The position numbers and the translations under genes are program-made. The notes beneath the pieces are model-generated. The model worked only from the letters and a program-made list of their open reading frames with translations, was not told the origin of the DNA and searched no databases. Of a stretch of 36,212 nucleotides of DNA, positions 1-21,638 are shown piece by piece; position 1 is the first letter of the stretch; each line of letters opens with the position of its first letter. The DNA comes from Acidobacteriota bacterium (GTDB lineage Bacteria; Acidobacteriota; Terriglobia; Terriglobales; Acidobacteriaceae), in contig JAJYGR010000045.1 in the NCBI GenBank assembly GCA_021790655.1, positions 1-36,212 on the forward strand. The letters run 5' to 3'.

Positions 1-210
1 CATGGAGACGCCATGCTGCACTACCCGGTATTGATCCAGAATCTTATCGAGCATTGCGAGCGGTCGACCGCCATCCACCATGTAATTTTCAGAGATGACC
101 TCAAACCAATCGACGACCGGGTGCTGCGTGAGGATGTGCTCGTAATGCGGCACGCGCAGGCCGATCCCGATGCCGTAGTCCGTAAAGCCATTGAACCGAT
201 TGGCTGCCAT
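1..210 (-). CDS. bufB: DUF692/MNIO-family enzyme (BufB-like), N-terminal part only; truncated by left window edge
   Basis: Not in ORF track because it has no stop in the window. Minus-strand reading from ATG at 210: MAANRFNGFTDYGIGIGLRVPHYEHILTQHPVVDWFEVISENYMVDGGRPLAMLDKILDQYRVVQHGVSM. The G(I/L)GLR..HY..I......DWFE.ISENYM pattern is the DUF692 N-terminal signature. GGAG ribosome-binding site lies just upstream. It directly follows a Cys-rich secreted peptide. Confidence 0.9.
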   Translation of the reverse strand, partial: MAANRFNGFTDYGIGIGLRVPHYEHILTQHPVVDWFEVISENYMVDGGRPLAMLDKILDQYRVVQHGVSM

Positions 211-288
211 ACAACACTCCAGAAACTGAAAGATTGGGCGGCAGTGTTGAACATGGTTCTGGCAGACCACCGCCCGCATCAAGTGGTT

Positions 289-582
289 TTAGGACATTTT
301 GGGCATAGGCTTGGAACCGTCGGTTGCACAGCTCCCCTTGCCCTTGCAGGAGTTCTTGTGATCGGCGCCCTGGCCCTTGCAGGAGTTCTGGCCCTTACAG
401 GCATGCTTTTCAACCTTTTTCTTCGAGGCCAAGATCAGGTTGACCGAATCGGTCGCAGTCTGGGTGGCGTACTGTGTATGGCCGCCCTCCGCAGCGGTGG
501 CTGCATTGGCGCGTACAGCGGTGCCCGTGAATAAACCGGAAACCGCTGCTGCAAACAGGAGCGTTTTGAAATTGCTGTTCAT
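289..582 (-). CDS. bufA: Bufferin-like Cys-rich secreted precursor peptide (BufA-type)
   Basis: Signal-peptide-like N-terminus (MNSNFKTLLFAAAVSGLFTGTAVRANA) followed by KHACKGQNSCKGQGADHKNSCKGKGSCATDG; adjacent to DUF692 gene. Confidence 0.85.
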   Translation of the reverse strand: MNSNFKTLLFAAAVSGLFTGTAVRANAATAAEGGHTQYATQTATDSVNLILASKKKVEKHACKGQNSCKGQGADHKNSCKGKGSCATDGSKPMPKMS

Positions 583-643
583 TCGGTAATGGCGTGCCTG
601 ATTCAGAATGAGGCCGCACCGGAGTCCGGCCCTTATCAGCTAC

Positions 644-668
644 GATTCCGCAGGAAAAGGAAAGTTAC
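644..668 (-). promoter_or_regulatory. Putative ECF promoter (GTAAC-N15-GAATC) for bufA-bufB
   Basis: Minus strand GGTAACTTTCCTTTTCCTGCGGAATCG; same spacing and motif as five other intergenic sites in the window. Confidence 0.7.
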
Positions 669-681
669 CGATGACACAGAT

Positions 682-1700
682 TTATTTCGCTGGATATTTC
701 TCAGTGCATACGTGATCTGTACGTGGAGATGTGATGCTTTGCCGTATTTTGGCGAGCGGAGCGTGGTCATCGAAAAGAATGCTGCCATCATGGGAATGGA
801 CGCCGAGCTGGCGCCATAGTAAATCGAGGTCAACTGGATCTGGCTCTTCTCCCATCTCCCTGTAAATGCTGGTCAAGACCGATGTTCCAGTGGCCTGATC
901 GCCCGCGGCAAGCACTCTGGAGATGGGCCACTCCTGATCGATGGTCCCCCTGCAGCGACGATCGCGCGCAATGCATCCTGCAACCCCTCACTGTTCTGGG
1001 TCTGTTCCCGGATGGATACGTCTGCCACGAGGCAAAACAGGGCCCCACCCCAGTAAGTGCTTGCCCAGCTATGCGCCTGATTCAAGCCCTGATCGGTGGC
1101 CCCGGGTTCTCCCTTGGGCATGTTCCGAAGCAATTCTCCCCATACTTTTTCCGGGGAAAGAGTGCCGGCTTGCGATCGGGCAATCGGCTCGATATAGGTG
1201 GCAAGCCCCTCTTCCAGCCAATGGTGGTTCTGCGAAAGTGAGGGCAATGCCATATGCACAAGTTCGTGCGTCATCGTCCAGTCGTTCGCCAAGTCCTGCT
1301 CCGTCGTATGCTGTCCGACGCGCATTCTGGTAAATGCTGGAAACCCATCGACGTTGCCCCAGGTCGTTCCGGTCAGCACTCCTGCCTCATCGGCAATCGG
1401 CAGGACAAGGACGCGCACACGCGCTACAGGAGATTTTCCATAGAAGAGAGAGACTGCATTCGCAGCCGTTTTAACCCATTGGACAATGTCGTTGTGGCTT
1501 ATGTCGAGATCGCCGTGGGCAAAATCTATCTGGATCTCAGCGCCGCTCACGTGGATCACCTGGGTTGACGTAACAGAGCTACTCCACGGTGCTCGATGCA
1601 GACCCGGAAACTGGGTCATACGTCCGCTTGCGGAGGCGGCGGTGACGGAACCAAGCAGCATTGGAAGCAAAAGAGCATATTCTAGGCGGCCTGGCTTCAT
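682..1700 (-). pseudogene. Secreted gluzincin-type metallopeptidase (HELVH...E), with apparent single-base frameshift near 946-950
   Basis: ORF 873..1700 carries a signal peptide and HELVHMALPSLSQNHHWLEEGLATY. The plausible C-terminus (TIDQEWPISRVLAAGDQATGTSVLTSIYREMGEEPDPVDLDLLWRQL...) continues in the frame of ORF 682..915. The frames join at a C5 (minus-strand G5) run. Confidence 0.7.
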
Positions 1701-1726
1701 CGGCTCTCACAAACGGATTCTTGTAT

Positions 1727-2074
1727 TCAGAGTTGCTTGGAGAGCAGATCATGGTGCTCGTAGCGTAGGCACGGATGATTCCCTGGCACTGCAACCCGAA
1801 ACCAGATAAATGGGAACAGCGGGTTTGGCAACCAATACATCCACCCCAAACTCTTTTCCGGTGTGTCACCGGGTAGCAACCAATCCATCCAGACGTAGAA
1901 GAACTTGTAGGGGCAGAAGCCCGGAACATAATTTACTTTGAACGAGCAGCCTTTCAGATATCGGCGGCGGATGTAGTAGTTTCCCTCAAACGGAGTGATG
2001 CCCCAGCCGATCGGCCCCTCAGCAAGCACCGCTCCAGTAACCCGATGCGTAATCGTAATGGCTTGACGGCTCAA
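1727..2074 (-). CDS. Conserved small protein, possibly DUF427-like
   Basis: ORF with VTGAVLAEGPIGWGITPFEGNYYIRRRYL...WMYWLPNPLFPFIWFRV; overlaps stop of upstream anti-sigma gene. Family assignment is from memory of similar proteins. Confidence 0.5.
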   Translation of the reverse strand: MSRQAITITHRVTGAVLAEGPIGWGITPFEGNYYIRRRYLKGCSFKVNYVPGFCPYKFFYVWMDWLLPGDTPEKSLGWMYWLPNPLFPFIWFRVAVPGNHPCLRYEHHDLLSKQL

Positions 2075-2316
2075 CTAGCGGAACCCTCAAGAATTGCTTT
2101 GTCCAGAAAACGATGCAGGCGAGCGCTATAACCGGACGGGACCTCAAATACCCGTTCGTCTCCTGTAATGACTAGCATCTTCCGGGTGCTGTCGTAGACG
2201 GCAGAGCACCGATGGCAACCGCGCAGATGTTGCTCGATTGTGTGGCACAATTCCGGCGAAGCTTCTCCATCCACATATTCGGACAGATGAGCGATTATCG
2301 TTTTGCAGCGAACCAT
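2071..2316 (-). CDS. Zinc-finger (zf-HC2) anti-sigma factor, apparently without a transmembrane segment
   Basis: HTIEQHLRGCHRCSAVYD (H-x3-C-x2-C motif); overlaps the end of the ECF sigma gene. Confidence 0.8.
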   Translation of the reverse strand: MVRCKTIIAHLSEYVDGEASPELCHTIEQHLRGCHRCSAVYDSTRKMLVITGDERVFEVPSGYSARLHRFLDKAILEGSAS

Positions 2317-2960
2317 GGGTTCACTCCTTTCCAGCGTTCCCAGATCGAGACCTTGGGTTTGGCGAAGATCGGCGACAGTGCTTCGCGCATCATCAAGCGG
2401 GCCCGATGCAATCGGGTCTTGACCATGGGTACGCTAATGCCAAGAATTTCTGCGGCTTCTGCGATGTTCAGGTGCTCCATGTCCCGCAACACAAAGATCT
2501 CGCGGTAGATTTCGGGGAGGCTCGCCAGCGCCTCTATGATCGCAGCGCGGACCTCTTGCTGCTCCAGGATTTCATTGGGCAGATCGCGCCAGTCGGCAAA
2601 TTGCTTTGGATGGAAGTGTTTTGTCTGCCCTTCCTTTTCCTGCTCTTCATCCACGGACTGATAGAGATGCTGGTGGCGTTTCCGCTTGTACATTTTTGCT
2701 TCGTTTTCAACGACTCGCATGGCCCACTGGGCGAATTTGTCGGTCTCCGCGAGTTGTTCCAGATGCAAAAATATCTTCAGCATGGCCTGTTGTACGGCAT
2801 CTTCCGCATCATCCTGATTGCGAAGAACGGAATACGCAATCAGGAACGCACGCCGCTCATAAGGCCGGATCAGCTCATGAAAATGGCTGCGTTCTCCTGC
2901 CCTGATTCTCTGGATCAGGAATGGTTCCCTCGATTTTTCCATCAACGCCTGATCGTTCAT
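2295..2960 (-). CDS. ECF RNA polymerase sigma factor (RpoE-like)
   Basis: Regions 2 and 4 recognisable: YERRAFLIAYSVLRNQDDAEDAVQQAMLKIFLHLEQL... and LPEIYREIFVLRDMEHLNIAEAAEILGISVPMVKTRLHRARLMMREAL. ATG at 2960 preferred over the ORF-track start at 2981. Confidence 0.92.
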   Translation of the reverse strand: MNDQALMEKSREPFLIQRIRAGERSHFHELIRPYERRAFLIAYSVLRNQDDAEDAVQQAMLKIFLHLEQLAETDKFAQWAMRVVENEAKMYKRKRHQHLYQSVDEEQEKEGQTKHFHPKQFADWRDLPNEILEQQEVRAAIIEALASLPEIYREIFVLRDMEHLNIAEAAEILGISVPMVKTRLHRARLMMREALSPIFAKPKVSIWERWKGVNPWFAAKR

Positions 2961-2994
2961 TGACAATACTGTCCGCAACAACCTTAAAAATAAG

Positions 2995-3019
2995 GATTCG
3001 CGGAACGGGCAAAGGTTAC
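2995..3019 (-). promoter_or_regulatory. Putative autoregulatory ECF promoter (GTAAC-N15-GAATC) upstream of the sigma gene
   Basis: Minus strand TGTAACCTTTGCCCGTTCCGCGAATCC. Confidence 0.7.
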
Positions 3020-3056
3020 ATCATCTCGTTTCCTCTTCTGTAAAGAAAAGCGCCCT

Positions 3057-3081
3057 GTAACCTTTTTTGATTATGGAAATC
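3057..3081 (+). promoter_or_regulatory. Putative ECF promoter (GTAAC-N15-AAATC) for the redoxin operon
   Basis: Plus strand TGTAACCTTTTTTGATTATGGAAATCA; same spacing as other sites. Confidence 0.6.
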
Positions 3082-3168
3082 AACATATAGAGGGAGCTAC
3101 GTAAAGTTTATGCTGGCTGCTTGGCGGCCACTCAGCGATTGATGGTCTGGCTGGAAAGGGTGAATTGA

Positions 3169-4251
3169 ATGAAATTTCTGCGGCATACAATCCGCGTGGC
3201 AAGGCTCAGTGCTTGTTGTCTCCTTCTTCCTGTTTTGGTGAGTGTGCTGCACGCGCAAGACGGCACAAAGATTCCAGGGCTGACGGCGGGAGACCGAATT
3301 CCACCGATTTCCGCAAAGGACCAGACTGGCACCCCCCAGACATTTGACACGCTGAAAGGGAAGCACGGTCTGCTGCTGCTGTTCTCGCGCTCCGCGGATT
3401 GGTGTCCGTTCTGCAAGCAGCAGCTTATGCAATTGCAGCAGGCCAAGCAGGAGTTTGCAGCGAAAGGCATCCATGTAGCCTCCATCACCTACGATTCACC
3501 GGCGATCCTGAAGAGCTTTGCCGACCGCAAAGGCATCACCTACCCGATGCTATCGGACCCGCAGTCGCAGATCATCCGCGCCTTTGGCATCCTCAATCCC
3601 GATGGCAAAGGCTTTGCCGCAGGCATCCCGTATCCGGGCATGTACTACATCACGCCGGATGGCATCATTCAAAAGCGCTTCTTTGAAACACAATATTTCG
3701 ACCGCTTCACTCCGAACAATGCGTATGCGGAACTGTTCGGTGGAGCTACCCCTGCGGCCAAATCTGTTGTCACTGAGCAGGGGCCGCATTTGACTCTTCA
3801 GCTTGCCCAGTCCGATACCGTCGTCGGCCCAGGCAGCCGGCTTGAACTACTGGTAAAGATCCATCCAGCGCCGAAAGTGCATGTTTATGCTCCCGGGGCT
3901 GAGACTCATGGGTACAAAGTAGTGAGCCTGGTGCTTGATACGAGTCCGAATTTTCGCGCACTTCCCACAATATATCCGCCGGGAACCATTATGGTGTTCC
4001 GCGCACTCAAAGAGTCTGTCCCTGTCTACAGCAAATCTGTGGTGATCCGTCAGGACATCGTGATGACGGCCGCGAGGGACTTTATCCACTCTATCGGTCA
4101 AGGAAGACAGGTTGAAATCTCTGGCACGTTCAACTACCAGGCATGTGACGACCACCAGTGCTTCAATCCAGTGAATGAGCCGGTGAAATGGACTGTACGA
4201 GTCGAACCGCTTGATACAGTGCGCGCTCCAGAGGCGATTCGGCACAAGTAG
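3169..4251 (+). CDS. Secreted redoxin (AhpC/TSA-like, W-C-P-F-C) fused to a DsbD-N-like domain
   Basis: GLTAGDRIPPISAKDQTGTPQTF...RSADWCPFCKQQLMQLQQ; C-terminal beta-rich region with CDDHQCFNPVNEPVKWTV typical of DsbD N-terminal domains; signal peptide. Confidence 0.8.
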   Translation: MKFLRHTIRVARLSACCLLLPVLVSVLHAQDGTKIPGLTAGDRIPPISAKDQTGTPQTFDTLKGKHGLLLLFSRSADWCPFCKQQLMQLQQAKQEFAAKGIHVASITYDSPAILKSFADRKGITYPMLSDPQSQIIRAFGILNPDGKGFAAGIPYPGMYYITPDGIIQKRFFETQYFDRFTPNNAYAELFGGATPAAKSVVTEQGPHLTLQLAQSDTVVGPGSRLELLVKIHPAPKVHVYAPGAETHGYKVVSLVLDTSPNFRALPTIYPPGTIMVFRALKESVPVYSKSVVIRQDIVMTAARDFIHSIGQGRQVEISGTFNYQACDDHQCFNPVNEPVKWTVRVEPLDTVRAPEAIRHK

Positions 4252-4350
4252 AAGTGCCTGTTCTGGTGCTCTCAAGATTGCAATATGGCCACGGCCGTTG
4301 CTACCGGACGGACAAGTCTCTCAATTTTTCAACTTTCAAGGAGTTTCTAC

Positions 4351-4920
4351 ATGAAGAACACCGCAAAACTGGCACTTCCCGCGCAGATGATCGACAGCAC
4401 CGAAGGAACCGGTAAAACAATGTTGGAGACAGCAAAAGCGCAGTTGGGGTTCGTTCCCAACATGTATGCGAACATGGTCAATTCACCAGGCTTGCTGGAA
4501 ACCTACCTGCTCGGATATAACCGCTTTCGCGAGGAAAGCGGCTTTACGCCGGTAGAACAGGAGGCGGTGCTGCTGACCATCAGTCGCTTCCATGCCTGCA
4601 CGTACTGCATGGCGGCCCACAGCATGATCGCAGACAAGATGTCGAAAGTGCCCGCTGAAGTATTGCAGGCATTGCGGACAGGTGGGCCAATTGCAGATGC
4701 CAAGCTGGCCGTCTTGTCGGAGTTTACTCGTCTGATGTTGGAGCAGCGTGGCAACCCTACGACGGACCAACTGAATGCGTTCAAGGCTGCCGGTTACAGC
4801 GAGCGTCAAGTGCTGGAGATTGTCCTGGCGATTGCCGTAAAGACCCTCAGCAATTACAGCAATCACGTCTTTCACACCGAGGTGGATGCGCCATTCCAGA
4901 AATATGTATGGGAACAATAA
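4351..4920 (+). CDS. Carboxymuconolactone decarboxylase / AhpD-like protein
   Basis: TISRFHACTYCMAAHSMIA (C-x2-C...H); start at 4351 has an AAGGAG RBS. Confidence 0.87.
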   Translation: MKNTAKLALPAQMIDSTEGTGKTMLETAKAQLGFVPNMYANMVNSPGLLETYLLGYNRFREESGFTPVEQEAVLLTISRFHACTYCMAAHSMIADKMSKVPAEVLQALRTGGPIADAKLAVLSEFTRLMLEQRGNPTTDQLNAFKAAGYSERQVLEIVLAIAVKTLSNYSNHVFHTEVDAPFQKYVWEQ

Positions 4921-4962
4921 TCGTTCGTTTTGGGCAACGCCGAGCTGGCCATCAGGAACACT

Positions 4963-6075
4963 ATGACTCTGATCATCATTCTCGCTCTAGGATTTGTCCT
5001 TGCCTATGTGAACGGCGCGAATGACGTATCGAAAGGGATTGCAACGCTGGTCGGAAGCGGCGTGACGAATTACCGTCGAGCCATTTTGTGGGGTAGTTTC
5101 TGGACCGGCATAGGTGGCATCGCGGGAGCATTTCTGGCGCACGCCATGATCCAGACATTTGGCAGCGGTCTGCTCGCACCAGGCGTTCACGCAAGTGTAT
5201 CTGCTGCACTCGCTACGATTGCCGGTGCTGCACTGTGGGTGGCGCTGGCTACGATCAGAGGTCTTCCGGTTTCTACGACGCACGCCATCGTCGGTTCAAT
5301 TGCAGGAACCGCTTCCCTCGCCTACGGGTTTGGTGGCGTCAACTGGCTATCTTTGGTTGGCAAGATCGCCTTACCTCTGCTGCTCAGCCCAATCGTGTCA
5401 CTGGTTCTCACCGCGGGCCTTCTCCGCGCTTGGAAAGCATTAGCTACTGGTTCCGTGAACGACTGCGTTTGTGCGGAAATAGTTCAGCCGATGGAGGCCA
5501 TCGGTGGCGGCGAGGGCGTGATAGGTGTGACCTCTGTTGTGCCACGACTCCACCTTGCGACGTGTGAAGCGAGCGAATGCCTGTTTCCCAAGATCACCCT
5601 CAACCATCTGCATTGGCTTACAAGTGGCGCTACCAGCTTTGCTCGCGGACTGAATGATGCACCCAAGATGGTGGCGATCTTATTGAGCGCAGCATTCCTT
5701 GCAGGGAGGGTATCTGCCCTGCCACTTACCTATTTTGTAGCGATGACACTCGGCATAGTTGCCGGGAGCTGGATGGCAGGCCAGCGAATCACCGAGGTAC
5801 TCGCCTGCGAAGTGACGCAAATGGACCATCGGGAAGGATTGGTGGCGAACCTGTCTACGGCAACATTGGTAGGGGTTGGCGCTGCTTTCGGGTGGCCGAT
5901 GTCCACAACACATGTCGCATCGGGCGCAATCTTTGGAATCGCCTCTACCAAAGACGAAAAGGTGAACGGCAAGATGATACGTACCATGCTGGCTGCCTGG
6001 ATCATCACGCTACCCGGAGCGGCGCTTTTGGGAGCTATGGTACTCGTCCTGCTTCGCATCGCAGGTTTGCATTGA
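4963..6075 (+). CDS. pit: PiT-family inorganic phosphate transporter
   Basis: GFVLAYVNGANDVSKGIATLVGSG and GWPMSTTHVASGAIFGIA; multi-pass hydrophobic profile. Confidence 0.9.
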   Translation: MTLIIILALGFVLAYVNGANDVSKGIATLVGSGVTNYRRAILWGSFWTGIGGIAGAFLAHAMIQTFGSGLLAPGVHASVSAALATIAGAALWVALATIRGLPVSTTHAIVGSIAGTASLAYGFGGVNWLSLVGKIALPLLLSPIVSLVLTAGLLRAWKALATGSVNDCVCAEIVQPMEAIGGGEGVIGVTSVVPRLHLATCEASECLFPKITLNHLHWLTSGATSFARGLNDAPKMVAILLSAAFLAGRVSALPLTYFVAMTLGIVAGSWMAGQRITEVLACEVTQMDHREGLVANLSTATLVGVGAAFGWPMSTTHVASGAIFGIASTKDEKVNGKMIRTMLAAWIITLPGAALLGAMVLVLLRIAGLH

Positions 6076-6114
6076 GCAGGTTCTGTTTTTCTGAATGCTA
6101 GGGTTAACAGGCAA

Positions 6115-7524
6115 CTAGCGCCAGAGTACCGACAGACCGCGAATGATCTTACCTGACGTTCCAGAGAATGCGCTTTCAAAAGCCATCCTTGTTACCAATA
6201 ACTGCACTCCAGTCGAATACGTCGGATAGGGATGGATCGTCGCGGCCAGGTCACTCAGCTTCAGCTTATTGTGCATGGTAATAGCAATTTCCGTGATGGT
6301 CTCTCCTGCCCGCTCGCCTACGATACTTGCGCCAACGATATGCCCGCTTTTGCGTGCGATGATCTTGATCAAGCCCAGCTTGTCATCCTCATTCACAGCG
6401 CGATCCACTTTGCTTATGTCAAAGGTCATTATCTGTAAATCGTGCTTGTATTTATCCCGCGCCCTCTGTTCGGTAAGGCCGATCTGGGCAACCTCCGGGG
6501 CCGTGAAGGTGATGCGCGGCATAGCTTCGGCCATCCCCGCATTGTTACCGGGAAGCAAAGCGTTTCTTACTGCTTGAAAACCCTGCCAGCCTGCCAGATG
6601 GGAATACTGCGGTCCTCCAATCACGTCGCCTGCCGCGTAAATGTGACTGGCTGTTGTCTGGAGATGGCCATTTACCTGAATGCCACATTCCGAATAGAGT
6701 ACTTTTGCTACTTCCAATCCTAGATCGTGTACCAGCGGAGCACGGCCTGTCGCAACGAATAAAAGATCGCCTGTAGCGCTGCCAGCATTTGTTTCCACCG
6801 TGATGTTGGGGCCATCTTTGTGCACAGCTACTGCCTGCGCGGCAATGCGCTGCACGCCCTCCTGCTCAAACACTCTGCTGATAATTTCAGAGACCTCTGG
6901 CTCTTCCGACGGCAGCAAACGCTCGGCAATGACCACCACTTCAGAGCCAAGCCTGCGATAGGCTTGAGCGATCTCGCAACCAATAGGGCCGCCACCAACG
7001 ATGAGCAATCTCTGCGGCAGTCGATCATTGTCAAAGATTTTCTGGTAGGTGAAAAATGGAACCTCTGCCAGTCCAGCCAGGGCAGGAATACGTGGCTCTG
7101 CGCCGGTGTTAATCAAGATTTTCTTTGCTTGGATCCGCTGCGTTCCCACCTCCAGCGTATGTGGGTCGAGAAACCGTGTTGCACCAAGAAGAACGTCCAT
7201 GCCTTTTTTACGGAGCGCTTCCGGCATAGTGGGTTCGTAGATTTGCTGGATGGTGGCGCGCAAATAATCGCGGACCTGCGTCATGTCCGTGACAGGAGCA
7301 CTGACCTGCAATCCATAACGGGAAGCAGTGCGTGCATGATGGGCCACGGTCGCTACTTTGATGAGCGACTTGCTAGGCACGCAGCCAGTCCAGGTGCAAT
7401 CTCCCCCGATCAAACCTTTCTCCAGCAGAGCGGTCCTCGCGCCCAATTGAACAGCGAAGTCCGCGGCGATCAGACCGGCAGCGCCCGCTCCGATGATGGC
7501 AAGATCATATTCCGGCGTGTTCAT
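6115..7524 (-). CDS. Dihydrolipoamide dehydrogenase/mercuric reductase-like flavoprotein
   Basis: DLAIIGAGAAGLIAADFAVQLGARTALLEKGLIGGDCTWTGCVPSKSLIK; NAD-binding and dimerisation domains (HPYPTYSTGVQ). Lacks HMA domain and C-terminal Cys pair of true MerA. Confidence 0.85.
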   Translation of the reverse strand: MNTPEYDLAIIGAGAAGLIAADFAVQLGARTALLEKGLIGGDCTWTGCVPSKSLIKVATVAHHARTASRYGLQVSAPVTDMTQVRDYLRATIQQIYEPTMPEALRKKGMDVLLGATRFLDPHTLEVGTQRIQAKKILINTGAEPRIPALAGLAEVPFFTYQKIFDNDRLPQRLLIVGGGPIGCEIAQAYRRLGSEVVVIAERLLPSEEPEVSEIISRVFEQEGVQRIAAQAVAVHKDGPNITVETNAGSATGDLLFVATGRAPLVHDLGLEVAKVLYSECGIQVNGHLQTTASHIYAAGDVIGGPQYSHLAGWQGFQAVRNALLPGNNAGMAEAMPRITFTAPEVAQIGLTEQRARDKYKHDLQIMTFDISKVDRAVNEDDKLGLIKIIARKSGHIVGASIVGERAGETITEIAITMHNKLKLSDLAATIHPYPTYSTGVQLLVTRMAFESAFSGTSGKIIRGLSVLWR

Positions 7525-8791
7525 AGTTCTCCTCATTTGGCTGCACTGCAAGCACCGTTACCTTATGGAGAAGGATCAGCGCATAAATTCCCATGATGAC
7601 CGTGCCAAGCAGCAGGCCATCGACGTGGAACATTTTCCCCAGCTCCCCCGCCAGCAGCGAGCCGCCAATCGCACCCAAACTCAGCAGAACGGAGTAGAGG
7701 CCCATGGCAGCGCCTTTTCCCGTGCCCGTGCCAAGGGACTGCGCCAGCCATGCAAGCGCCGCGGGAGTAAAACCGCTCTCTACCATAATCAGCAGAGCAG
7801 TGACCGCTGTGATAGACCCGCGCACAGAAGGAGCCATATTGCCCGAATGGTTGATCGCGAAAAGTCCTAAGCAGACAGGCAACATGGCGAGGAGCGATAG
7901 GCGCATGGCAGAGCGAATCTTCATGTGGGGGAGAACAAAACTCCATCCACTGACGCCGATGCCGAAGACGATGGAGTAGCCAAGCAGAAGCCAGCCGACA
8001 TGCGTCGGATTCTCCGCGAAGATTCCATCCAGATATTGGGAGCCGTGCGACTTCTGTGTCAACAGAAATGGAAGCGTTGGTCCGAGCCAAAGCCCAACCA
8101 CAGCGTTCACGCACAGCCAGACCGGGGCCAGAGACCGTACAGAGGGACTTTTTAGAGCGCGCAGCAGTCCTGCGAATGCGGCCTGCGAACCATGACTCCT
8201 GCTGCCGTTCGCGCCAAAAAACAGCAGGATCGCACAGAGAAGATACGCAACGGCCACCAGGCCGAATGCGTGGAGATGAAAGCGTTGCCAGAATTCGCTC
8301 CCCATTAGTCCACCAAGCGCCAGTCCTGCCAGCAGAGAAAGCTCGAAGAAGCTCATCACACGAGCGCGCAGGCCAGGTTCATGGACAGTGGAATCCGCAA
8401 GGTAAGCCAGCAGTGGAGGAGTCACAGCGGCCACGCCAATCCCTTCCAGCGTTCTGCTCAGGAAAAATATCTCGACACGCGTGCTGAGGGCAAAGAGTTG
8501 CACAGCCAGCGCGCCGATCATGGCTCCAGTCCCCATCAACCAGCGTGGCGAGATGGCGTCGGAAGCCATGCCAAACGGAATCGAAAATAGCAGCTCCGCT
8601 GCGAAAGAGACGGCGCCCAGTGTCCCCAGCAGGCGAGCATTTATCGGGAAACCGTGCCCGCTCAGATTTGCTAGGTAGATACCGATGAGAACGCCGCTGG
8701 CGCTGCTCGCAATCCGCAGAATGGCGTGTGCGAAGATCGTGACTGCCAATCGGTCTGGGCGTTGGTGCATTCGCAGGTTTGAGTCCTTCAT
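7505..8791 (-). CDS. MFS transporter
   Basis: 12-TM-like hydrophobic ORF (FSIPFGMASDAISPRWLMGTGAMIGALAVQLFAL...); ATG at 8791 (MKDSNLRM) or 8770; 20 nt overlap with next gene. Confidence 0.83.
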   Translation of the reverse strand: MKDSNLRMHQRPDRLAVTIFAHAILRIASSASGVLIGIYLANLSGHGFPINARLLGTLGAVSFAAELLFSIPFGMASDAISPRWLMGTGAMIGALAVQLFALSTRVEIFFLSRTLEGIGVAAVTPPLLAYLADSTVHEPGLRARVMSFFELSLLAGLALGGLMGSEFWQRFHLHAFGLVAVAYLLCAILLFFGANGSRSHGSQAAFAGLLRALKSPSVRSLAPVWLCVNAVVGLWLGPTLPFLLTQKSHGSQYLDGIFAENPTHVGWLLLGYSIVFGIGVSGWSFVLPHMKIRSAMRLSLLAMLPVCLGLFAINHSGNMAPSVRGSITAVTALLIMVESGFTPAALAWLAQSLGTGTGKGAAMGLYSVLLSLGAIGGSLLAGELGKMFHVDGLLLGTVIMGIYALILLHKVTVLAVQPNEENYEHAGI

Positions 8792-8798
8792 GCCATAG

Positions 8799-8823
8799 GA
8801 TGTTTGAGCACGCGAAACGTTAC
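8799..8823 (-). promoter_or_regulatory. Putative ECF promoter variant (GTAAC-N15-ACATC) for MFS/MerA-like operon
   Basis: Minus strand GGTAACGTTTCGCGTGCTCAAACATCC. Confidence 0.5.
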
Positions 8824-8837
8824 CAAACTCGGTGCTT

Positions 8838-8862
8838 GTAACTTTATCTTGCTTTGGGAATC
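8838..8862 (+). promoter_or_regulatory. Putative ECF promoter (GTAAC-N15-GAATC) for radical SAM/methyltransferase operon
   Basis: Plus strand TGTAACTTTATCTTGCTTTGGGAATCC. Confidence 0.68.
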
Positions 8863-8911
8863 CTTGAATTGCGGGTTCTTTGGGTTGATCGTATAACCCT
8901 GGGGCCGTACA

Positions 8912-10531
8912 GTGAACACAATAGGAAGGGTGGCTTCCTTGGAAACCCCGAACGTAGAAACCTTGAACTGCAAACTCCATGCCAATGATCCATCGCAATC
9001 GCAAGTCAAGAAAGACGCCGACTACGTTTTCTACGAACTGACCCGCAGCATCTGTCCGCAGTGCAGACAAGTGATCGATGCGAAGATCCTGCTGCGCGAC
9101 AACAAGGTGTACATGGCCAAGCGGTGTCCGGAGTGCGGTCCGTTTGAGGGGCTAGTCTATGGAGACGCAGAGGCCTACACGAACTTCGGCAAATTCAATA
9201 AGCCGGGAACGATTCCGCTGGCCTATGGCACGGAGATCAAAGACGGCTGCCCATTGGATTGCGGCCTGTGTCCGGATCATCAACAGCACACCTGTCTGGG
9301 CATCATTGAGGTCAACAGCGCCTGCAATATGGATTGTCCGCTGTGCTTCGCCGATGCGCGGCCTGGTTTCAGCTTGACGATGGAAGAAGTGGAGGCGATG
9401 CTGGACGATTTTGTTCGCACCGAAGGCAGCCCGGAGGTGGTCCAGTTCTCCGGGGGCGAGCCGACCATCCATCCGCAGATCATCGATTTTGTGAAGGCTG
9501 CTCACGGTCGCGGCATTCCGTTCGTCATGGTCAATACCAACGGTAAGCGCATCGCACATGATGATCGCTTTCTCGAACAACTCAACGAGGTGCGTCCCTC
9601 TCTCTACTTCCAGTTCGATGGCTTTGAGCGCGAGACCTACCGCATTATTCGCGGAGAGCCGGACATATTGGAAGAAAAGCTGCGCGCACTCGATCGGCTC
9701 GCCTCGATTGGCCTCAACGTGACACTTGTCCCAGCGATTGAGCGCGGCGTGAACGACCATGAGGTCGGAAAGATCGTTGAATTTGCTATCAGACACCCTG
9801 CGGTCCGCGGCATCAATTTTCAGCCAGCGTTTCACGCGGGCCGCCACATGCAGCATGATCCGATGCAGCGAATCACTATCCCAGACATTCTCAGGATGAT
9901 TGAACAGCAAACATCCGGCAAGTTTGTCGTCAGCGACTTCATTCCTGTTCCTTGCTGCTTTCCTACCTGCAACTCCGTTACTTACGCCTTCATCGACGGT
10001 GAACAGGTGACTCCGCTTTCGCGCATCGTGAATGTCTATGAGTATCTCGACTACATCACCAATCGAGTGATGCCGGATTTCAGCCTGGAGATCAAGAAGG
10101 CGCTCGAAGGACTCTGGTCGTCCTCGTCGGTCTCCGGTTCGCAGAAGTCGGCGGAGCAGTTTGCCGTCTCCTGTCAGGCGTGCGGACTGCCGGAGAGCTT
10201 GACTGTCGGCGACATTGCCAACAATATGCTGATGATTATGTTGCAGGACTTCATGGATCCGTGGACCTTCAACCAGAAGAACCTGATGAAGTGCTGCAAA
10301 GAGTTTCTGCTGCCTGGCGGTAAGCAAGTACCCTTCTGCGCCTACAACACGATTGGCTACCGGGAGCAGGCCCGCGCACAACTGGAAGCCATGGAACCCG
10401 AGCGCAAGCAGGCGCGCCGCGATGGACGGCCATATGAACTGAAACCCATTGTCTTCGATCTCAAGACAGGGATACCTCGCAAGGAAACGAGTACCCTACA
10501 ACAGATCGAGCAGAAGAACGGATCACATTAA
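8912..10531 (+). CDS. Radical SAM enzyme of the Tes/MJ0619-like type (rubredoxin-like N-terminal Cys pairs, extra Cys-rich C-terminus)
   Basis: CPQC...CPEC; KDGCPLDCGLCPDHQQHTCLGIIEVNSACNMDCPLCFADA; QFSGGEPTIHP; C-terminal CQACGLPE...LMKCCKEFLLPGGKQVPFCAYNTIGYRE. GTG start at 8912 uncertain. Confidence 0.85.
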   Translation: MNTIGRVASLETPNVETLNCKLHANDPSQSQVKKDADYVFYELTRSICPQCRQVIDAKILLRDNKVYMAKRCPECGPFEGLVYGDAEAYTNFGKFNKPGTIPLAYGTEIKDGCPLDCGLCPDHQQHTCLGIIEVNSACNMDCPLCFADARPGFSLTMEEVEAMLDDFVRTEGSPEVVQFSGGEPTIHPQIIDFVKAAHGRGIPFVMVNTNGKRIAHDDRFLEQLNEVRPSLYFQFDGFERETYRIIRGEPDILEEKLRALDRLASIGLNVTLVPAIERGVNDHEVGKIVEFAIRHPAVRGINFQPAFHAGRHMQHDPMQRITIPDILRMIEQQTSGKFVVSDFIPVPCCFPTCNSVTYAFIDGEQVTPLSRIVNVYEYLDYITNRVMPDFSLEIKKALEGLWSSSSVSGSQKSAEQFAVSCQACGLPESLTVGDIANNMLMIMLQDFMDPWTFNQKNLMKCCKEFLLPGGKQVPFCAYNTIGYREQARAQLEAMEPERKQARRDGRPYELKPIVFDLKTGIPRKETSTLQQIEQKNGSH

Positions 10532-10540
10532 AGAGTGCGC

Positions 10541-11323
10541 ATGGAAGAGCAAAGCGTCAAACAGTGCTGCGCCGCTTTTTATGGAAGCGATTTTGCACGC
10601 CTCTTGCTGGGAGACAGCTTTCATCCAGGTGGCACGGAACTCACGCATCACCTGGGCGCGTTACTCGGGCTAACGACTGCTTCCAGCGTGCTCGACGTTG
10701 CCTCAGGCCGCGGCACCAGCGCGTTCCATCTCGCAGAGTCCTTCGGCTGCCACGTTACTGGCGTTGACCTGAGCAAAGAAAACGTGCGCTTTTCCGCAGA
10801 GGAAGCCCGCCGGCGGGGATTGAACCAGCAGATCAGCTTCCAATTCGGCGATGCGGAACGCCTGCCGTTTGCCAGCAACACTTTCGACGCCATAGTCTGC
10901 GAGTGCGCTTTCTGCACCTTCCCCAGCAAACAGATTGCCGCCAGCGAGTTCTATCGGGTGCTCAAACCGGGAGGATTGCTGGGTCTCAGCGACCTGACGC
11001 GAATGGAAGCAGCCCTTCCTGATCTGGAAGGACTGCTGGCCTGGATCGCCTGTATCGGGGATGCGCTGCCGGTCGAACATTACATTAAAATCTTGCGTGC
11101 AGCTGGATTGCAACTGAAGGCTGTTGAAGATCAAGGCCATGCCTTAACAGAAATGGTGCGGCAAATTCAGGGAAAATTGCTGGGAGCTGAGATCCTGTCC
11201 AAGCTGAAAAAGATTGAACTTCCCGGCGTGGACTTTGCCACGGCGAAGCAATTCGCCCAAACCGCGCTGCAGGCCACGCGCACGGAAAAGCTAGGCTATA
11301 GCGTCATTGTTTCGAGAAAGTGA
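10541..11323 (+). CDS. SAM-dependent methyltransferase, ArsM-like
   Basis: VLDVASGRGTSAFHLAESFGCHVTGVDLS; Cys-containing segments CECAFCTFPSKQIAASEFYRVLKPGG and AWIACIGDALPVEHY resemble ArsM Cys positions; N-terminal CC pair. Confidence 0.8.
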   Translation: MEEQSVKQCCAAFYGSDFARLLLGDSFHPGGTELTHHLGALLGLTTASSVLDVASGRGTSAFHLAESFGCHVTGVDLSKENVRFSAEEARRRGLNQQISFQFGDAERLPFASNTFDAIVCECAFCTFPSKQIAASEFYRVLKPGGLLGLSDLTRMEAALPDLEGLLAWIACIGDALPVEHYIKILRAAGLQLKAVEDQGHALTEMVRQIQGKLLGAEILSKLKKIELPGVDFATAKQFAQTALQATRTEKLGYSVIVSRK

Positions 11324-11350
11324 TCCTCGAATACAGGCAGACCGTTACGT

Positions 11351-12712
11351 TCAAGGCACCGGAGCAGTTCCGGCAGAAACATTCTCCCCGGTCGCAAACT
11401 CCAGATTCGCCAGCATTGCCCGGTAGTCGATGCCGGCTTGGGTAGCTTGCTCGCCCGCCCTGGATAGATGCACCTGCGCCTGCATCACATCGTAGGCGGA
11501 GATCAGATGGGCAGCGTAACGTGCCTTTGCCAGATGAAGGGCCTGTTCCGCGGCGGAACGCTCTTGGGTGAGAGCACGTACCTGCGCCTGTTTATCGGCA
11601 AGTCCGTAATACGATCGACTTACTTCAAGTTCGACCTGTTGCCTCAGCAGGTTGTTGTCGGCCTGGGCCGCATCCACCTCAGCCAGGGCTTCCACGCGCT
11701 CCGCCTTCAGGCGTCCTCCGGTATACACCGGCATCTGGACGCCAACGGCGCCCACTCCATGCTGCTGGTCAGGCTTGACGGTTGAGTCGTTGAAACGTCC
11801 GCCCCCGCCGGCGGCAAAACCGTTCACCGTGGGCCGACTCTGTGCGCGGGCCAACGCCAGGTCTTCACGTAGGGCCTGCACCGTAAGGGAAGATGCCTTC
11901 ATCTCCGGTCTTGTGCGCAATGCGGTTGCGATCTCGTTGGGCAAAGGCGGTATACCGGTCTGTACCGTAGCCGGCATCAACAGGACTGGCTCAACGGAGG
12001 TCTCTTCTGTCCCCATTGCGGTATCGAGCGCCGAATACGCAGCATGCAGCGCCTCTGTTGTATGCACCCGATTGCCGTGCGCCCTGGCCAGGTCTGCCTC
12101 GGCCTCAACCACGTCATGTTTTGAGGCAAGTTTTGCCTCATAGTAAGCGGACGTGCGCCGCACCTTCGTTTCCTCAGCCTGTTCGGTTACGTGCGCAAGC
12201 TGGTCTAGATTGGTCGCGGCAATCGTGAGCAGATAGGCCTGCGTCACAGCAAGAACAATACGCCGGTCCTCGGCCTGCTTCTGAACTACTGTAGCCTGTG
12301 CCCTCAGTTTTGCGGCGGCCAAGGCGTGATGGATGCGTCCGAAGTCGAAGATCGCCTCCGATAAATTCAGCGAGCCTGCAAAATTGCGATAGAACGGGGA
12401 CGCTGGAAAACCCGTCAGGTCGAGCGCGTTCGTCGCGCCCGAGAGGCCCGCTTTGGCAATCCCCGACACCGACAGCTGGGGATAATACGCCGCGCGTACT
12501 TCGCGTACCTTCGCCTCCGTCTCCTGCTCCCTGGCCTCGGCCTTTTGTAGAGACGGCTGGTGTTCGAGGGCCGTCGCAATCGCCTGCGGAAGCGTCAGGG
12601 TGTTTTTCGTGGGCACAACAGTCTGCGGTCCAATTCCTTGCGCAAACACGTTGAGCGCGAAGACAGAGAAGACAGAAAAGATCAGCGGTAGATAGATAGA
12701 AGAAATTCGCAT
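11351..12712 (-). CDS. TolC-family outer membrane efflux protein (RND system)
   Basis: Signal peptide then LTLPQAIATALEHQPSLQKAEAREQETEAKVREVRAAYYPQLSVSG. Confidence 0.9.
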   Translation of the reverse strand: MRISSIYLPLIFSVFSVFALNVFAQGIGPQTVVPTKNTLTLPQAIATALEHQPSLQKAEAREQETEAKVREVRAAYYPQLSVSGIAKAGLSGATNALDLTGFPASPFYRNFAGSLNLSEAIFDFGRIHHALAAAKLRAQATVVQKQAEDRRIVLAVTQAYLLTIAATNLDQLAHVTEQAEETKVRRTSAYYEAKLASKHDVVEAEADLARAHGNRVHTTEALHAAYSALDTAMGTEETSVEPVLLMPATVQTGIPPLPNEIATALRTRPEMKASSLTVQALREDLALARAQSRPTVNGFAAGGGGRFNDSTVKPDQQHGVGAVGVQMPVYTGGRLKAERVEALAEVDAAQADNNLLRQQVELEVSRSYYGLADKQAQVRALTQERSAAEQALHLAKARYAAHLISAYDVMQAQVHLSRAGEQATQAGIDYRAMLANLEFATGENVSAGTAPVP

Positions 12713-17130: not shown

Positions 17131-17877
17131 CTATGGGGTCTGCTGCCGTATCGCCTCAGCGATTTGCTGCATCGAGGAATCGTTCAGCGTAGCGACGACG
17201 TCATACACTAGGCCGCGATGGCACCAAAGAACTGAGCGAACGCCATGGCCTGAGGTTTCCACGTTAACCTGCATTTTTTCGCGCTCGTATGCTCTGGGCT
17301 CGGCTGCTACGAAGATGGAGATGGATGTATTGCTATCGTTGTGGTGATATTGCAGCAATGCCGCCTTGCGTCCCGAAATGTCACAGATACGGGCAGTTTT
17401 GAGCGCCGCTCCTGGGACTGTCGGCACGTGGACAGGAAAGTCTACGCGGCCTTGTAACCATTCCTCCGCCTGCTGTGGCGAATCTGCGGCGATTTGCTCC
17501 CGGCCTGGAAGGTATTGCAGATAGTCGGCGACGAAGGCCTGCGCCAAGCGTTCGGGCGAGGGAGTGTAGCGATCCCACAAAATGCCCGCCGTGGCACCGG
17601 CCAGCAGCACAACCGCTGCCGCAGCCGCCATCCATCGCCGCAGATCACGCCTCTTGCTGGCGTTCGGTCTCTCAACCATTCCGGAGATTCTCCGCCGTAG
17701 CGCAACAGGAGCCTGCTCGCTGTTTGCCAGCTTCTTAAGTTCAGCGCGCAAGCGTTCTTCCTCCTTTTGGAACATCTGACACTGGCCGCATTCCACAAGG
17801 TGAAGGCGCGCTTCATCGGAGAGCGTTCCGTCTTCATGGTCAAGCAACCGTTGCTTCCGGTATTCCTGGCAGTTCAT
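17131..17877 (-). CDS. Membrane-anchored zf-HC2 anti-sigma factor
   Basis: MNCQEYRKQRLLDHEDGTLSDEARLHLVECGQCQMF; TM segment WMAAAAAVVLLAGATAGILW; ATGA overlap with sigma gene. Confidence 0.8.
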   Translation of the reverse strand: MNCQEYRKQRLLDHEDGTLSDEARLHLVECGQCQMFQKEEERLRAELKKLANSEQAPVALRRRISGMVERPNASKRRDLRRWMAAAAAVVLLAGATAGILWDRYTPSPERLAQAFVADYLQYLPGREQIAADSPQQAEEWLQGRVDFPVHVPTVPGAALKTARICDISGRKAALLQYHHNDSNTSISIFVAAEPRAYEREKMQVNVETSGHGVRSVLWCHRGLVYDVVATLNDSSMQQIAEAIRQQTP

Positions 17878-18425
17878 GATTTCCTCATCTTCCTGGTCGC
17901 ATAGACGGAGAGCATCTGGCGCAAGGCGCTCCGGGCACGGGCGAGCCGCGAAGCGGCCGTGCCAATCGGACAATCCAGAATGGTTGCAATCTCGCGAAGA
18001 CGAAAGTCCTCTGCATCCGAAAGCCACACGACAATGCGTAGATGTTCCGGCAAAGATTCGAGGGCGCGACGCACATCCTCCGCCGCAACCAGGGCCGGGA
18101 GCGGATCAGCACAACTCCCGGATTCCGCCATCTCAGGATCGCCCGCTTCATCCTCCCTCCATCGCTTGCTGCGGCGCTTGCCGCTGAGGAACGTGTGGTA
18201 AAGCGTTTGAAAGAGCCAGGCGCGCCAATTGCGCACGATCGTATCTCGCCTCTCCCATGCCCGTGCGGCGGTCTCCTGGGTCAATTCCTGCGCCTCATCC
18301 GCATTCCTCGACAGGCGGAGCGCAAACCGGTAGAGGTCATTTAAGTTGTCCTGCAGAGCATCAGACAGGGATGTCCTCTCCGAAGGGCGATCGAAATTGA
18401 TCGGAATGACCTCATTTTTCAGCAT
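17874..18425 (-). CDS. ECF RNA polymerase sigma factor (second)
   Basis: LYRFALRLSRNADEAQELTQETAARAWER...LPEHLRIVVWLSDAEDFRLREIATILDCPIGTAASRLARARSALRQML. Confidence 0.9.
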   Translation of the reverse strand: MLKNEVIPINFDRPSERTSLSDALQDNLNDLYRFALRLSRNADEAQELTQETAARAWERRDTIVRNWRAWLFQTLYHTFLSGKRRSKRWREDEAGDPEMAESGSCADPLPALVAAEDVRRALESLPEHLRIVVWLSDAEDFRLREIATILDCPIGTAASRLARARSALRQMLSVYATRKMRKS

Positions 18426-18560
18426 TGGCAGTAGTAGGACGCCTGGGGCACAAATAATTATCCATAAATCGACAAAAAATCGGAGGCAAGCTAAACAGCC
18501 AATCTCAGAACGTTCATGATACGCAGCCGATCCCGCCAGACTTGGCACTGAAGAACAGAT

Positions 18561-21613: not shown

Positions 21614-21638
21614 GATTCCCCGTATGACAAAAAGTTAC
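21614..21638 (-). promoter_or_regulatory. Putative ECF promoter (GTAAC-N15-GAATC) upstream of the decayed transporter and GR-like gene
   Basis: Minus strand CGTAACTTTTTGTCATACGGGGAATCG. Confidence 0.65.

Follow-up and report, generated by a model that had tools for sequence, protein, structure and literature searches.

A four-cysteine Buf2-type bufferin operon probably controlled by an adjacent ECF sigma/zinc anti-sigma factor pair in Acidobacteriaceae

Bufferins form a very large, recently recognised class of RiPPs. Buf2 (BufA2) precursors combine a Sec-type signal peptide with a CKGxNxCKG core and are encoded in MNIO-DUF2063-DoxX operons; six cysteines were counted in 90% of them and twelve in the rest, and sigma-factor genes were reported only for Buf1, together with NrsF, with none in Buf2 clusters (PMC12452194). 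Buf1 (DUF2282) precursors have an unrelated core motif, carry four cysteines, are modified by MNIO/DUF2063 and have sigma-factor genes nearby. In captophorins of the Cys-Lys group, the substrate Cys is followed by Lys, and an Asp directly after the catalytic Asp is the typical substitution in the MNIO (PMC13097082). On the regulatory side, the closest described systems are CorE, a copper-dependent ECF sigma factor associated with copper resistance, whose own C-terminal Cys-rich domain is the copper sensor and which has no linked anti-sigma factor (PMC3107203), and the RsrA-type soluble zinc anti-sigma factors. Which Buf2 cysteines are modified and how Buf2 operons are regulated are unsettled in the literature covered, in which we found neither a characterised product of a four-Cys Buf2 nor a description of such an operon beside an ECF/anti-sigma switch.

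The DNA analysed here (36,212 nucleotides; the window) is an entire contig (C84) of a draft Acidobacteriaceae bin (G000; 3.56 Mb in 359 contigs, 88% complete, 4% contamination). Near its left end, the minus-strand frame at 289..582 encodes BufA, a 97-aa Buf2-type (Cys-Lys) precursor (MNSNFKTLLFAAAVSGLFTGTAVRANAATAAEGGHTQYATQTATDSVNLILASKKKVEKHACKGQNSCKGQGADHKNSCKGKGSCATDGSKPMPKMS) with a four-Cys core (CKGQNSCKGQGADHKNSCKGKGSC). Read by eye, its start has the features of a Sec-type signal peptide: a basic residue near the start, a hydrophobic stretch and an ANA site. A Pfam search of the precursor found no DUF2282 domain, the mark of Buf1. Against the BufA2 profile it scored 23 bits (E = 6e-5; cut-off 60), and six-Cys relatives (34–36 bits) were also below that cut-off. 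The adjacent bufB (1..210, minus strand) comprises the first 70 codons, from the ATG, of an MNIO enzyme (PF05114, formerly DUF692; 64 bits) and is cut by the contig end; this part matched NCBIfam MNIO_BufB with 70 bits over 57 positions. The first-pass annotation had recognised here a Cys-rich secreted peptide beside a DUF692/MNIO N-terminus, and both identifications hold.

Since the window contig ends within bufB, the rest of the operon was read from two paralogous loci elsewhere in the bin, on contigs C43 (L015) and C231 (L016). Both carry bufA, a full-length MNIO gene, a DUF2063 gene (313 aa) and a DoxX gene in a row, and their BufA homologues are 82% identical to that of the window. The complete MNIO of C43 passes the MNIO_BufB equivalog cut-off (352 versus 310 bits), matches solved DUF692/MbnB chains and, as in the captophorin group, has a second Asp immediately following the catalytic one (EWDD). 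The DUF2063-type partner that had been expected further left is thus present, with DoxX, in both paralogues, and the earlier interpretation of the window locus as bufferin-type is supported; that it belongs to the Buf2 type had not been recognised at first pass.

More distant homologues were collected by scanning contigs with a BufA alignment, which recovered homologues that a scan with the single BufA peptide had missed (no match with that query). They lie nearly always beside an MNIO gene, and the named relatives among the matches are mostly Acidobacteriaceae. Within this family, 142 of 398 genomes have bufA homologues. For comparison, 80 Buf2 loci were sampled through one search of Acidobacteriaceae genomes, nearly all ≥90% complete; MNIO (79), DUF2063 (78) and DoxX (73) genes are near bufA in this sample, whose genomes and loci are kin to one another, so that the p-values below overstate independence and the counts overstate the number of independent events. 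A fused MNIO-DUF2063 protein (578 aa, Pfam) beside a four-Cys precursor was seen in Methylophilus (L082, 8319-10052), and the MNIO frames of loci L108 and L121 are of comparable length.

With four Cys instead of six or twelve, the window locus is filed as a four-Cys variant rather than as a standard Buf2, a type that appears undescribed in PMC12452194, where only the two higher numbers are given. The four Cys had first been taken as an anomaly, with GADHK as a spacer interrupting the CKG repeats; neither view stands. The core holds six Cys in 43 of the 80 loci, four in 34, five in two and two in one, which makes the four-Cys form common in Acidobacteriaceae and rules out that it is unique to the source genome. 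Alignment with relatives shows that a segment of eight residues, Cys3 and Cys4 among them, is missing from the window core. GADHK is no insertion: it is the short loop that remains at the site of the missing segment. The stretch from Cys2 to Cys5 spans 18 residues in six-Cys forms versus 10, 13 or 15 in four-Cys forms. Joint loss of Cys3 and Cys4 in every case is ruled out by the five-Cys forms L021, L189 and L190. One locus (L103, 7962-8351) encodes an eight-Cys precursor made of two four-Cys units in tandem.

The distribution of the four-Cys form was examined on a tree of the MNIOs. Four changes of the label are needed, of which well-supported branches force two or more, and the lineage of the window (L015, L016) clusters with the six-Cys relative L054. 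Forcing L015 and L016 together with the GAD-loop loci L055–L058 costs 45 log units (p-AU 0.03), a comparison that is suggestive only, because the GAD-loop group was named after the tree had been seen. Repeated loss of the segment would suggest that Cys3 and Cys4 form a separable pair. Naturally occurring four-Cys precursors amount to a deletion experiment that tells which Cys are dispensable, and the four-Cys form eases the solving of the modification pattern by mass spectrometry.

Since losing a Cys pair alters the number of ligands, four-Cys precursors might no longer be copper buffers and might instead be substrates for a different modification or bind a different metal; other metals have been proposed for some bufferins (MerC fusions; PMC12452194), and MerA-like flavoproteins are encoded in the window. 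We consider this unlikely. Four-Cys and six-Cys loci share the MNIO and DUF2063 partners, the CKG motifs and the regulatory setting, their MNIOs are interspersed in the tree, and linkage to the sigma pair described below does not differ between them (p = 1).

That the window copy is a decaying, non-functional locus is very improbable. Its MNIO gene is cut by the contig end, the sigma gene on C43 encodes region 2 only, and a genome of the same genus (G003) has a bufA relic with stops; against this, bufA in the window is intact, its promoter is conserved with the paralogues, and what can be seen of the MNIO is unbroken and closely resembles its complete paralogues. In G003, where the relic lies at L017 5259-5447, the ECF pair is kept, and no MNIO was found on the contig that carries the relic. 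The C231 contig is collinear with window positions 1-11803, at 78% nucleotide identity over most of 12 kb and 88% in the bufA region. This similarity may reflect a duplicated island or two organisms mixed in one bin, and we therefore do not claim three buf copies in one cell.

The candidate regulatory pair lies upstream of bufA, on the same strand. The ECF sigma factor (2295..2981, minus strand; Pfam Sigma70 regions 2 and 4) has 228 aa from a TTG at 2981, with an internal ATG start possible, and the next gene (2071..2316, minus strand) encodes an 81-aa zinc anti-sigma factor (zf-HC2, PF13490, 42 bits) with a C-x-H-x3-C-x2-C motif that is kept in 97 of 97 collected relatives. The motif is shared with RsrA, whereas the TIGR03988 score of 34 bits is under the RsrA cut-off of 62.5; the zf-HC2 factor likewise differs from the NrsF of Buf1 loci. 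A CorE-type sensor was rejected: 37 of 40 ECF relatives have no Cys in their last 40 aa, and the zinc anti-sigma gene is adjacent. Of the 80 Buf2 loci, 55 have an ECF/zinc anti-sigma pair no more than 5 kb from bufA, in several arrangements and across many genera; the other 25 have none nearby. Cultured relatives with the pair include Edaphobacter lichenicola and Bryocella elongata (loci L118, L122, L123 and L128). Among 18 bufA-bearing genomes that are complete or nearly so, 15 encode an ECF homologue at most 5 kb from bufA, and in 12 of the 18 this nearby homologue is the best match of the genome.

Upstream of bufA, an ECF-type promoter element (GTAAC-N15-GAATC; GTAACTTTCCTTTTCCTGCGGAATC; 644..668, minus strand) is conserved in the paralogues, and a second copy, conserved in C231 and G003, precedes the ECF gene (2995..3019, minus strand), which suggests autoregulation. 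Further elements in the window precede a divergent redoxin gene (3057..3081, plus strand; one mismatch, with exact divergent sites in C231 and G003), radical-SAM and methyltransferase genes (8838..8862, plus strand; conserved in C231) and, from the pattern search, a cation-efflux fragment with a MerA/glutathione-reductase-like gene (21614..21638, minus strand). With one mismatch allowed, these five sites compare with 0.04 expected from shuffles, two of the five having defined the pattern. The window sites at bufA and the ECF gene served to define a strict form, GTAACYTT-N12-GAATC. Its nine matches in the bin (3.56 Mb) are confined to the three buf contigs, where they precede bufA, the ECF gene, the redoxin gene, the radical-SAM gene and the metal-efflux/flavoprotein stretch; the reversed motif had no match over the whole bin. 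Sites independent of the defining set are those at the redoxin gene (exact in C231), at the radical-SAM gene (C84 and C231) and at the metal-efflux/flavoprotein stretch. Nine other genomes of the genus gave matches only in G003 (two, at the ECF gene) and G002 (one), and, one case excepted, the motif is absent from those genomes of the genus that have no sigma pair at a buf locus.

Across the family, TGTAAC[CT] was found within 220 bp upstream of bufA at 52 of the 80 loci (0.8 in shuffles and 7 on the opposite strand), versus 1 of 161 MNIO and DUF2063 genes inside the operons. When a profile was anchored on GTAACY, a -10 (TCnnA) emerged at about a fixed distance, which the anchor does not force. 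A regular expression for the full motif that fixed the -10 proved too stringent for use on relatives (3/86). The upstream element co-occurs with the ECF pair, being present at 43 of 55 loci with the pair versus 9 of 25 without it (p = 4e-4); with a looser -10 the association was weaker (p = 0.1), because more loci without the pair match the looser pattern. The ECF-like promoter noted at first pass is thus conserved across relatives, and it stands next to an ECF/anti-sigma pair to which it had not been linked.

These data have to be set against the possibility that the bufferin operon is real and the ECF pair a mere neighbour in a metal-resistance island, with bufA under some other control, such as that of a copper repressor or of another sigma factor reading the same element. 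The window is rich in metal-resistance genes and has a second ECF gene, and the 9 loci that retain the element without the pair fit such a reading. We regard it as quite unlikely: the pair accompanies Buf2 operons in many genera at differing positions and orientations, the motif is missing, with one exception, from the pair-less buf loci of the genus, and the sigma gene bears an element of its own in some loci where it starts its own transcript (9/38) and in none where it lies downstream in the same operon (0/17). Some loci with a downstream sigma gene have no recognisable element.

The reading that we consider likely is a four-Cys Buf2 operon under the control of the adjacent ECF/zinc anti-sigma pair, with a copper-buffering product. 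By homology, BufA would be modified in the cytoplasm by the MNIO with its DUF2063 partner, converting Cys to 5-thiooxazoles; by analogy with Buf1, the inner two Cys would be modified and the outer two would form a disulfide. The modified peptide would be exported by Sec and would bind excess copper in the periplasm. As conservation of the element suggests, the adjacent ECF factor would drive bufA transcription together with its own gene, the redoxin gene and the radical-SAM/methyltransferase pair, the zinc anti-sigma factor holding it inactive until metal or thiol stress frees it. Gene content, the lost Cys, the proximity of the sigma pair and the common promoter element can be read directly from the sequence, and the chemistry, the binding of copper, the inducing signal and the use of this promoter by this ECF factor are deduced from conservation and homology. 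For Acidobacteriaceae at large, we lean towards a joint proposal in which Buf2 is a main output of a dedicated ECF/zinc anti-sigma stress regulon that also includes the redoxin and radical-SAM genes, and in which the four-Cys form arose more than once by loss of the Cys3-Cys4 segment. For metal stress in Acidobacteriota, the sigma/anti-sigma link offers a concrete regulator candidate, and further candidate regulon genes are indicated by the promoter element.

Two of these candidates lie within the part of the window that is collinear with C231. The redoxin (3169..4251, plus strand; AhpC/TSA by Pfam) is a predicted secreted protein with a weak DsbD N-terminal match, and the radical-SAM protein (HMPTM zinc ribbon) and methyltransferase (8912-11323) follow their ECF element in both contigs. 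Between bufA and the anti-sigma gene are a putative secreted metallopeptidase (873..1700, minus strand; HELVH...WLEEG, no Pfam family above cut-off) and, at 1727..2074 on the minus strand, a 115-aa ORF from the ORF list with no family. The HExxH...WLEEG family adjoins 11 of the 80 Buf2 loci (L183, L186, L189–L194, L199, L203 and L204), nearly all of them without the sigma pair nearby (10/25 versus 1/55, p = 2e-5), and could process or sense the bufferin. The second ECF gene (17874-18548) is followed by a putative anti-sigma gene (17131-18548 together) with a Cys/His pattern seen by eye; a Pfam search of the latter gave no match. Both lie in a metal-resistance island (11351-32548) that encodes RND efflux components (CusA/CzcA-like), two copper P-type ATPases, MerA-like flavoproteins, a thioredoxin and an ABC exporter.
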